57,329 nucleotides of DNA from Armatimonadetes bacterium DC. GTDB taxonomy: Bacteria; Armatimonadota; Fimbriimonadia; Fimbriimonadales; GBS-DC. A program made the position numbers and the translations under genes. Where the stretch lies: contig LDYB01000008.1 in NCBI GenBank assembly GCA_001442985.1, positions 1 to 57,329 of the forward strand, read 5' to 3'. The notes below the pieces were generated by a model, which was given only the letters and a program-made list of their open reading frames with translations, did not search any database and was not told where the DNA came from. Shown here in pieces: positions 54,099 to 56,490 of this stretch; the first letter of the stretch is position 1; every line of letters begins with the position of its first letter.

Positions 54099-54106
54099 TA
54101 TGAAGG

Positions 54107-54143
54107 GGTCAGCGCGAGGCATTTGCATGCACTCGCGCTGACC
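54107..54143 (-). terminator. Hairpin terminator after the barrel-protein gene
   Basis: Arms 54107-54118 and 54132-54143 form a perfect 12-bp stem with a 13-base loop, twelve bases past the stop codon. There is no U-tract, so it may need Rho or act as a 3' stabiliser. Confidence 0.55.
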
Positions 54144-54155
54144 GACGAGATTACT

Positions 54156-54839
54156 TTAGCGCAGGGTGAAGCTCCGCGAGAGCGAGAAGCCCACATCTGA
54201 CTCGCGGTTGGGATGGAACCACCAGACCCCGACACGCCACTCGCCGATGCGATGCACCAGCGCGAGGTTATAGGAGAGCGGCTCTCCTGTCATCGTGGGC
54301 TGGTGCGAGTAGAACATCAGCGCGGTGCGGTCGTTCAGGCGGTAGTTGCCCGCTATGAAGGCGATATCGCGCCCATTACGCAGGTGTTGCCAGCCCGCCA
54401 TCAATGAGAGGTTGCCCTCCGTGCGCACGCCCATCAGGTAGAAACCCTCCTGCTGGCGCGTGTAGGTGGACGAGAAGCCGTAGCCTGTCAACAGGCTTAC
54501 GGGCATCCGCTCTCCCTGTTGCGCCAGCTGATAGCTCACCTGAAGCGTGGCGCGGTCGCCATAGCGCGAGTAGCCAATTCCGAGGTCCATTCGATCTGTA
54601 ACGCCCGTCTTGAAAAACGAGCGGAACTCGTTCTCTTCGGAGTTGGGCGAGCCAATCGTGAACCATGTCAGCGTGCCCTTCGGCACGGTCAGCTCCGCGA
54701 AGTCGGTTGCCGTCTCGCTTCCCTGTTGCGATTGAATCACCACGCAGGCAGGGCAGCCGCCGCTGCCTTCCTGCGCATGCAGAACACCTGCTGTTGCCCA
54801 TGTCAGGACCATCACGGTTAGAAATGCTGTCTTTTTCAT
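54156..54839 (-). CDS. Putative outer-membrane beta-barrel protein
   Basis: The 227-residue protein has a signal peptide (MKKTAFLTVMVLTWATAGVLHAQ), a small CPAC segment, then about ten alternating amphipathic strands (LTWFTIGSPN, MDLGIGYSRYGDRATLQVSY, LMGVRTEGNLSLMAGW). It ends in an aromatic-containing strand (GFSLSRSFTLR). It looks like a small outer-membrane barrel; no family is recognised. AGGAGG lies seven bases before the ATG, partly buried in a predicted RNA helix that also contains the stop codon of the upstream Cys-rich gene. Confidence 0.75.
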   Translation of the reverse strand: MKKTAFLTVMVLTWATAGVLHAQEGSGGCPACVVIQSQQGSETATDFAELTVPKGTLTWFTIGSPNSEENEFRSFFKTGVTDRMDLGIGYSRYGDRATLQVSYQLAQQGERMPVSLLTGYGFSSTYTRQQEGFYLMGVRTEGNLSLMAGWQHLRNGRDIAFIAGNYRLNDRTALMFYSHQPTMTGEPLSYNLALVHRIGEWRVGVWWFHPNRESDVGFSLSRSFTLR

Positions 54840-54849
54840 GGTTTTGCCT

Positions 54850-54942
54850 CCTGTGTTGAGTGTGTTGTGGCTGGCTGAAACCAGCGTGAAAGGACTTCGC
54901 GCCGCTGTGGCGCGAGGTAAAGCCCAATTCCCTCAACACAGG
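54850..54942 (-). promoter_or_regulatory. Intercistronic three-way-junction RNA spanning a stop codon and a Shine-Dalgarno site
   Basis: Bases 54932-54942 pair with 54850-54860 (11 bp, perfect). Inside lie two hairpins: 54909-54915 with 54897-54903 (7 bp, 5-base loop) and 54881-54885 with 54870-54874 (5 bp, 6-base loop). The closing helix contains the UGA of the Cys-rich gene (54935-54933) and the first three bases of the downstream AGGAGG (54852-54847). Confidence 0.5.
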
Positions 54943-55340
54943 GGCGGCGCACGGGGTGCTTCAGGGGAAAATGGAGGGGAATGATTGCGAACTGCTGGCA
55001 GTCCGAAGCGCACATGCTGCCCGAAAGAAACCTCAAGGCGGGGAGGTTCGGGCAGTGCCAGCACCCAGAGTTGTATTTCCAGCGTGAGCCGTGCGGGAAG
55101 CGCCTTATCAGTCTGGGGCGCGTCTATTTTGCATGCCCGACACGAACACTCACACGCGGGCGCGGAGCTTTTCTCTGAGCAGCAATCGTGCTTCGGAGCC
55201 TGCGTCTGGCAGCACGCCTTCTGGGCGGCACAACATGCCCCTTCCTGCGGCGCGCATGAACAGAATACAACCCATGCGGCGCCAACAGGCAGGACGCTGA
55301 GCCATACCCCCAGCAAAATCGCCCACAAACGCGCTGCCAT
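54933..55340 (-). CDS. Secreted cysteine-rich protein of unknown function
   Basis: The 135-residue protein starts with a signal peptide (MAARLWAILLGVWLSVLPVGAA). About 40 residues with 14-15 Cys follow, in pairs and triplets (CSCAPQEGACCAAQKACC, DCCSEK, CECSCRACK), then a strand-like hydrophobic tail (LTLEIQLWVLALPEPPRLEV). The pattern suggests metal binding or many disulfides; no family is recognised. ATG 55340 lies nine bases after GGGTATAAT. It is followed by the barrel gene across a structured 93-base spacer, so the two may work together. Confidence 0.65.
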   Translation of the reverse strand: MAARLWAILLGVWLSVLPVGAAWVVFCSCAPQEGACCAAQKACCQTQAPKHDCCSEKSSAPACECSCRACKIDAPQTDKALPARLTLEIQLWVLALPEPPRLEVSFGQHVRFGLPAVRNHSPPFSPEAPRAPPLC

Positions 55341-55349
55341 CGCAACAGG

Positions 55350-55358
55350 ATTATACCC
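55350..55358 (-). promoter_or_regulatory. GGGTATAAT promoter, leaderless Cys-rich protein gene
   Basis: GGGTATAAT on the minus strand ends nine bases before the ATG at 55340. Confidence 0.55.
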
Positions 55359-55362
55359 CATT

Positions 55363-56490
55363 TTGTCGATTTTCAATCACTTCGTGCCCATATTTTTGCG
55401 CGAGATGGGGCTGTCGGCGACCCTGATTACCTTTGTGCTGACATGGGACAACTACCTCAACATGCTCATGCAGCCCATAGTGGGGCAGCTTTCTGACAAT
55501 ACGCGCACGGCGCTGGGGCGGCGCAAGCCGTGGGTGCTGGCGGGGGCGCCGCTGGCAGGGGTGGCGTTTCTGATGGTCCCTGCCTCGCCAGTGGTGTGGG
55601 GGATGATGCTCGCGATTTTTCTGACGAACTTGGGCGCGGCACTGATGCGCTCGCCCGGCGTGGCGCTGATTGGCGACCTCTACCCATCCCGACAGCGGAG
55701 CATTGCGAATGGCATCATCAATCTGATGCTGGGCGTGGGCGCGGGGCTGGCGTACTTTGGCGGTGGCTGGCTCTACGGGCAATTTGGACGCTATGCGCCC
55801 TTTCTGTTCGGGAGCGCGATGCTCTTTCTGGCAATCGTTGTGGTCCTGTTTTTCATCCGGGAGCCTGCTAACCCTGTAGACCAGCCCGACGAGCCTGAAG
55901 CGGGGTTTCGGGAGACCCTGCATACACTGCTCTCCCAGCACGATTCGTCGCTTTTCTGGATGCTGGGCGCGATTCTCTCGTGGTTTATGGGGTTCACCGC
56001 GCTGGAAGCGTTGCTCTCGCTGATTGGCAAAGAGGCGCTGGACATCCCCCCCGATAAGATGGGGCAGTTCGTGGCGCTGTTGCTAGCGGTGTTCGTGCTG
56101 TGTGCCGTGCCCAGCGGGATTCTGGCGACCCGTTTCGGGCGCAGGCGCATCATCCTGCTGGGGCTGACGGGGCTTATCGCGACGCTTCTGTACGGCTATA
56201 CGGTACAGTCGGTGCCGATGCTGATTGGGTTTCTGGTGCTGGCAGGCTTTTTCTGGGCGTTTGTGAATGTGAATTCGCTGCCTGCGTTGTACGACACGGC
56301 GCCGTACCTGAGAGCGGGCATCATCACGGGGTTATATTATCTGGCTTCCAATCTGTCGGCGGTGCTGGGTCCGCAACTCGCGGGTGTGCTGGTTGACCTC
56401 ACGGACAACAATTACCGCATGGTATTTCTGTATGGAGCGTTTTTCATGACGCTGGCGTGGGCGTGCATGCGGCGCGTGCGCGTGGCATAG
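55363..56490 (+). CDS. MFS transporter (sugar/SLC45-like), N-terminus possibly truncated
   Basis: The protein has about 375 residues from a TTG start and ten to eleven visible membrane helices. Typical segments are FVPIFLREMGLSATLITFVL, the MFS loop QPIVGQLSDNTRTALGRRKPWVLAGAP, LIGDLYPSRQRSIANGIINL, and the second-half loop GILATRFGRRRIILLG. It resembles the glycoside/SLC45-type cation symporters; the substrate is unknown. The first helix is incomplete and no ATG with a Shine-Dalgarno site precedes it. GTG 55384 and ATG 55405 are other options. The frame stays open through the antisense of the Cys-rich gene but without transporter-like sequence. Confidence 0.75.
   Translation: MSIFNHFVPIFLREMGLSATLITFVLTWDNYLNMLMQPIVGQLSDNTRTALGRRKPWVLAGAPLAGVAFLMVPASPVVWGMMLAIFLTNLGAALMRSPGVALIGDLYPSRQRSIANGIINLMLGVGAGLAYFGGGWLYGQFGRYAPFLFGSAMLFLAIVVVLFFIREPANPVDQPDEPEAGFRETLHTLLSQHDSSLFWMLGAILSWFMGFTALEALLSLIGKEALDIPPDKMGQFVALLLAVFVLCAVPSGILATRFGRRRIILLGLTGLIATLLYGYTVQSVPMLIGFLVLAGFFWAFVNVNSLPALYDTAPYLRAGIITGLYYLASNLSAVLGPQLAGVLVDLTDNNYRMVFLYGAFFMTLAWACMRRVRVA

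Follow-up and report, generated by a model that had tools for sequence, protein, structure and literature searches.

What is the function of a long RNA helix that has the end of one gene in one strand and the ribosome-binding site of the next gene in the other? The question is raised by a locus in the window (the whole stretch of 57,329 nt analysed here), where a Cys-rich leader open reading frame (ORF) and a barrel gene lie head to tail on the minus strand, which is the strand of their mRNA, with a gap of 93 nt (Table 1). The earlier note on this DNA had described an 11-bp perfect helix with the upstream UGA stop in one strand and the start of the downstream AGGAGG in the other, and our computations bear out each of these elements. 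Specifically, CCUGUGUUGAG (54942-54932) and CUCAACACAGG (54860-54850) form 11 perfect pairs in the minus-strand transcript. The former contains the UGA (54935-54933), and the latter contains AGG, which is the 5′ half of the AGGAGG at 54852-54847. Three more pairs extend the helix beyond a bulged A (54849), GCC at 54945-54943 with GGC at 54848-54846, and because the helix runs on past this bulge, five of the six Shine-Dalgarno (SD) bases are paired. The final 14 nt of the leader ORF, together with the base that follows, are thus engaged with a 15-nt segment that includes the AGGAGG of the barrel gene. The minus-strand fold of 54850-54942 reached -45.6 kcal/mol, compared with a mean of -24.6 (sd 2.8) in 200 dinucleotide shuffles (z -7.46), none of which equalled the native value.

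Table 1 Features of the leader-barrel locus, in positions of the window; P+0 is the first base of the predicted P-site codon.
Feature	Position	Strand	Remarks
TATAAT, probable -10 box	55350..55355	-	9 nt before leader ATG
Cys-rich leader ORF	54933..55340	-	135 aa, 13 Cys, ends RAPPLC-stop
RAPP codons CGU GCG CCG CCC	54942..54953	-	arrest motif; predicted P-site 54947-54945, A-site 54944-54942
Left (5′) helix arm	54932..54945	-	P+2 to P+15 of predicted stall
Stop UGA of leader ORF	54933..54935	-	inside left arm; position not conserved
Enclosed region, two hairpins (54930-54888, 54885-54870)	54870..54930	-	other sequence there in relatives
Right (3′) helix arm	54846..54860	-	bulged A at 54849
Shine-Dalgarno AGGAGG of barrel gene	54847..54852	-	7 nt 5′ of its ATG
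Barrel gene	54156..54839	-	227 aa; 12 strands after an N-terminal CPAC; weak DUF5777

The leader ORF probably starts at the ATG at 55340. A TATAAT, TATACT or TATATT box was found 4-9 nt 5′ of an in-frame start at 10 of the 12 loci compared (absent from L011 and L015), and because a -10-like box stands so close to the start codon, the leader mRNA is likely leaderless, starting without a 5′ UTR. As for an internal promoter between the two genes, which the earlier note had named as an observation that would speak against its proposal, a sigma-70 scan of 54100-55500 returned no promoter, a weak result since the likely first-gene promoter was missed by the same scan. The leader ORF had no match in Pfam and NCBIfam; no Pfam family was reached by the window leader at E 10, and PF11162 was unmatched among seven members. 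Its layout is constant. RAPP lies near the C-terminus in 12/12 orthologues, followed by 2-7 residues, and a CxxC lies 59-62 residues ahead of RAPP in every one of them (59 in the paralogue L059), in place of the CruR spacing of 45 (within 1-2). A RAPP close to the end of a short leader protein whose gene precedes another one is the layout of RAPP arrest peptides. The predicted stall position within RAPP was taken from PMC10951233 and PMC12992588. When the filter for CutF-like proteins (PMC9973294) was applied, PP occurred within the last 15 residues in all 12 orthologues, 11 were shorter than 150 aa with starts chosen by us (L015 has 169 aa), and the alignment showed a hydrophobic N-terminus.

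With regard to the downstream gene, structure prediction returned a barrel of 12 strands (pLDDT 75.9) with the KdgM porin as top structural match; the match to DUF5777 was sub-threshold, and CPAC follows directly after a presumed signal peptide. Our best reading of the gene product is an outer-membrane barrel. The barrel is present in 15 of the 18 genomes of one Armatimonadota family. A search of genome contigs returned one relative (L021), and the viral contigs searched held none. The N-terminal part of the L009 barrel (G004:C1 about 1222114) contains an in-frame insertion with hairpin-like repeats, which separates the start from the CPAC region.

Comparisons among relatives covered the 12 genomes of the family in which the whole gap is present; in G007, G010, and G016 the contig ends too soon. 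The Cys-rich leader ORF precedes the barrel in all 12 evaluable genomes. A leader orthologue adjoins the barrel in each of the 12 genomes that have one, and G002, G003, and G014 have neither gene. At all 12 evaluable loci the 3′ end of the leader pairs with the AGGAGG of the barrel, across gaps of 68, 93, 95, 100, 105, 141, 149, 174, 212, 221, 221, and 329 nt. The two enclosed hairpins of the earlier note are both present in the window but are not conserved among relatives, in which the outer helix alone is kept and the inter-arm content is different in each. Since the interior differs each time, the two arms, and not the junction, are the unit of selection. In several relatives the inter-arm space is a string of hairpins such as GCTTGGACAAGACTGTCCAAGC, a repeat with as many as 274 copies in a single genome of genus g5 and 0 in the genome of the window (G000). 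Dispersed palindromic repeats (GCTTGGACAAGANTGTCCAAGC, with the same copy numbers) fill the inter-arm loop in L003, L007, L013, L014, and others, and also in L004 and L006, with the helix intact.

The pairing between the arms is specific to each locus. Native duplexes ranged from -20.4 to -34.9 kcal/mol, whereas the 342 other windows taken from each gene averaged -8.2 to -13.7. Swapping arms between genomes raised the mean from -26.9 to -20.9, a cost of ~6 kcal/mol, and none of 20,000 arm permutations equalled the native set. The native partner ranked first in both directions for 6/12 loci; for the left arms of L005, L010, and L014 it ranked 7-8. For the covariation count we used ten gap-free rows (L005 and L015 were omitted because of indels) and shuffles that ignore kinship: 0 of 500 shuffles reached the native score, and 84.4% of cells were paired in the native register vs at most 43.8% with slid partners. 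Only 2 of the 15 core pairs changed on both sides, and three more double changes fall in the outer extension, which pairs in a minority of rows.

The earlier note had looked to relatives for compensatory base changes, and these were present, with the helix kept by double changes. In L013, a U-A pair became A-U and the last Cys codon became Ser. In L008 and L009, the old UGA now reads UGU, and at its third base A-U has given way to U-A; the pair was kept and the stop in the arm was lost, the stop now lying 9 nt downstream, possibly in one event. L015, whose barrel is 51% identical, builds the helix from a sequence of its own, in which CCUCCU faces AGGAGG. Prediction and covariation together give an SD-masking RNA structure, as in the CutF mechanism. 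We make no claim for synonymous-site constraint in the last codons, since the CGU and GCG codons, which lie beyond the helix, vary no more than the Pro codons do. In a survey of stop/SD helices over 400 kb of G004, 21 pairs with gaps of at least 40 nt had a mean of -13.1 (sd 5.1); three of them came up to -20.4, the weakest value of the native set, and the top one, at -26.2, was another RAPP leader.

Which landmark of the leader does the mask follow? We computed the register at 14 loci, namely the 12 orthologues, L059, and one G004 leader. The SD partners lay at P+0..P+8 of the predicted stall in 14/14, and the RAPP proline codons are therefore part of the SD mask. The left arm starts at P-2 to P+3 and ends at P+13 to P+22 in most orthologues; the exceptions are L015, with pairs counted out to P+36, and L059 and the G004 leader, which end at P+8 or P+9. 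A stalled ribosome covers the mRNA to about P+15 ahead of the P-site, and the left arm corresponds roughly to this stretch. The stop ranges from P+9 to P+27 (in L015 it lies 27 nt past the predicted P-site) whereas the SD partners are fixed, so that the constant relation is that of SD to RAPP and not of SD to stop. According to the earlier note, a ribosome terminating at the UGA would open the helix and free the second SD. A ribosome at the 3′ end of the first gene would indeed cover one strand and free the second SD, but termination at the UGA as the opening event is not supported, and the stop codon was rejected as the landmark: the stop has moved in L008, L009, and L015 while RAPP and its register stay.

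The modelled cost of opening the SD was 6.5-16.1 kcal/mol in the free RNA and 3.1-9.1 kcal/mol with a ribosome at RAPP, and it was lower at all 14 loci, although barely so in L005 (6.5 to 5.9). A ribosome at the stop gave about the same cost in most loci and a better one in L003, L005, L009, and L013; the modelled energies therefore do not separate a stall from termination. In addition, CCN-CCN is always anti-SD-like, so part of the overlap between RAPP and SD comes free, and CCGCCC, found in most orthologues, is the commonest Pro-Pro codon pair in G004 (26%).

The same arrangement of RAPP and SD was found ahead of other genes. L059 (G011:C1:465858-466205 plus downstream) is a second Cys-rich leader, with RAPPV, in which CCUCCUGUGU pairs with ACACAGGAGG; the gene after it has a GLHCEGC heavy-metal-domain (HMA) motif, the domain being named by eye. 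When 1.2 Mb of G004 were scanned for small ORFs with a terminal or nearly terminal R[AG]PP, five ORFs with a downstream SD were returned, of which three are convincing and two probably spurious (RAPP 9 and 12 residues from the end, in frames of 51 and 149 residues); the 13 cases with other motifs had a mean of -13.7. In the three convincing leaders (G004:C1 near 241.4, 420.5, and 718.1 kb, within L072, L081, and L095) CCUCCU sits exactly on AGGAGG, with partners P+5..P+0. One has a CxxC at 60 residues, and the downstream genes encode one TolC-like and two pilin-like proteins, named by eye. CCTCCT makes up 29 of the 1,328 Pro-Pro codon pairs (2.2%) in the same DNA. The resulting p is 1e-5 for three of three, a value that disregards the two probably spurious ORFs; for three of five it is about 1e-4 by our own reckoning.

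Across the phylum, we identified 13 DUF2946 loci, nine of them with a terminal R[AG]PP ORF; nine ORFs had an SD candidate, and the distance from CxxC to RAPP was 43-48. The SD partners lay at P-1..P+8 in four of the nine ORFs (L122, the second of L124, L125, and the first of L130), at P+6..P+10 in L129, and elsewhere in four (L120, the first of L124, L128, and the second of L130). With four in register, one near, and four not, the dual use of RAPP appears common but not universal. L128 and the second ORF of L130 lack CxxC; L120 and the first of L124 have it, with the SD unpaired with RAPP. L125 (G000:C25:41212-41430) belongs to the genome of the window. It has a weak DUF2946 match (23.0 bits, below the cut-off), ends in RAPPVCA, precedes a pilin-like gene, and has its SD paired with the RAPP codons. 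It is the counterpart of the 241-kb leader of G004 (CPVC, spacing 48, pilin-like gene downstream) and is therefore not independent of it. A plasmid search with a DUF2946 protein returned no match.

We consider it likely that the Cys-rich gene is a sensor leader of the CutF/CruR kind, on which a stalled ribosome opens the lock on the outer-membrane barrel gene. A simpler possibility, which we regard as unlikely though worth keeping in mind, is plain translational coupling, in which any ribosome terminating on the Cys-rich gene opens the helix without a regulated stall, and in which the Cys-rich protein acts as a partner that is kept in proportion to the barrel. The strict pairing of leader and barrel would suit this arrangement, RNA unfolding is an accepted model of coupling (PMC12548453), and in most loci the modelled cost of opening the SD drops as far with a ribosome at the stop as with one at RAPP. 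However, RAPP and the CxxC spacing are constant and the stop position, from P+9 to P+27, is not; RAPP arrest is established in print, and unrelated genes are preceded by the same RAPP/SD layout. The gaps of 68-329 nt also exceed the usual ~40 nt range of coupling (PMC12548453), although unfolding is less bound by distance.

The gap lengths bear on another reading as well, attenuation of the CruR type, in which stalling or release at RAPP would decide Rho-dependent termination in the long untranslated gap, with the helix secondary. CruR works in this way (PMC9426467) and gaps of up to 329 nt leave Rho room, yet the SD-pairing helix is kept by covariation, and in several relatives the gap is packed with hairpins, unlike the unstructured stretch of CruR. 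We judge Rho attenuation improbable as the main explanation; it is nonetheless compatible with a sensor leader. A role of the helix in mRNA processing or stability, either as 3′ end protection of the leader mRNA or as an RNase III site, would account for a helix that is long and perfect, and a stem-loop does affect the stability of cutF mRNA (PMC8456105). It leaves unexplained why the RAPP codons are always in one strand and the SD in the other, and we hold it to be very improbable. Coincidence between conserved codons and a conserved SD is extremely improbable: six pairs need only the RAPP codons and the SD, and CCN-CCN fits AGGAGG anyway, but the non-coding right arm, where it precedes the SD, changes in concert with the left arm, and L015, L005, and L013 rebuilt the helix with different bases. 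A ligand-binding riboswitch with a three-way junction can practically be dismissed: the shape that the earlier note had called riboswitch-like, though of no class known to it, occurs in the window genome alone, Rfam at gathering thresholds matched only a tRNA in the window, and the junction interior is replaced in relatives, leaving no conserved core.

Returning to the sensor leader, we infer the stall, its control by a ligand, the sign of the response, and the opening in cells, and envisage the following order of events. When no ribosome is present, the Pro codons and the next 8-12 nt would pair with the SD and its preceding bases, so that the barrel gene would be silent. The nascent Cys-rich chain would probably be exported or in the translocon, with its CxxC about 60 residues before the C-terminal RAPP. 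A ribosome held at RAPP would cover the left strand and the helix would open, allowing other ribosomes to translate the barrel gene. A metal or a thiol/redox signal on the Cys residues may set the duration of the stall, and the RNA between the arms could be replaced freely provided that the arms meet. Copper as the ligand is a first guess by analogy. With CutF, copper lengthens the stall; the stem-loop over the next SD is opened and the gene behind it switched on (PMC9973294), whereas copper relieves the CruR stall and turns the operon off (PMC9426467).

In addition, we are somewhat inclined to think that RAPP plays a double role, as a stalling peptide and, through the same nucleotides, as a mask of the SD, so that the mask would enter the P- and A-sites of the stalled ribosome. 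The cassette (CxxC ... RAPP/mask ... SD) would then be portable to unrelated genes with gaps from tens to more than 300 nt, and Armatimonadota may reuse it for metal-, envelope-, and pilin-like genes. RAPP codons as an SD mask are not stated in the passages of literature on arrest peptides, CutF, and Armatimonadota that we consulted. In print, RAPP arrest places RAP in the P-site and Pro in the A-site (PMC10951233, PMC12992588), and CruR arrests in vitro at RAPP (PMC12992588).

A separate observation concerns the barrel. In a distant family (f19; 8 genomes; L035-L042, G178-G187) the barrel stands by itself with no leader, and in 8/8 the codon for the second Cys of CPAC is replaced by an in-frame TGA (CPA-TGA). 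All eight genomes have a tRNA-Sec at 72.9 bits (ARAGORN agrees at both loci tested) and SelB over the cut-off, and the 60 nt after the TGA are 92% identical, with a stable hairpin. Judging from these sequences, the TGA very probably encodes selenocysteine, giving a probable new selenoprotein barrel (CPAU). Selenocysteine at CPAC would mark a redox or metal site, which fits a thiol- or metal-sensing leader. In the leader-bearing family, G005 (the genome of L015) has tRNA-Sec and SelB, and its barrel still has CPAC.

The nascent-chain metal sensors CutF and CruR are recent and have been studied in two proteobacteria; the leader described here would place their logic in another phylum, with evolutionary support for the RNA half. 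The mask keeps its register to RAPP over gaps of up to 329 nt. Such a long-gap mask bears on the open question of whether coupling proceeds by RNA unfolding or by scanning (PMC12548453). In CutF-like genes, unfolding had been considered limited to short gaps (PMC9973294). Like CutF (Rhodobacter capsulatus cutFOG; PMC9973294, PMC8456105), the leader is small and probably exported, with a Cys motif and a proline-rich C-terminus, and the SD of the next gene is predicted to be masked by a stem-loop that leader translation would be needed to open. CutF, in contrast, has CxxxC, ends in PPPRL, and is separated by about 40 nt from a multicopper oxidase gene; the present leader has CxxC among 13 Cys, carries RAPP, and stands 68-329 nt ahead of a barrel gene, with free content in the gap. 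With CruR (Bordetella pertussis, DUF2946; PMC9426467) the leader shares a fixed CxxC-to-RAPP distance and the gene for a probable outer-membrane protein in the operon, but CruR acts via Rho, its spacing is 45 vs 59-62, and the leader has no PF11162 match. ApdA and ApdP (PMC10951233, PMC7897499) are likewise small leader proteins with RAPP close to the C-terminus; these precede protein-localisation genes and had no SD-masking hairpin predicted for them (PMC7897499), whereas here the RAPP codons are in the mask. Finally, as proposed for our locus, the stalled ribosome of SecM-secA disrupts a stem-loop that masks the next SD (PMC10987492, PMC7897499); SecM has another arrest motif and reports export, while the Cys-rich chain suggests metal or thiol sensing.
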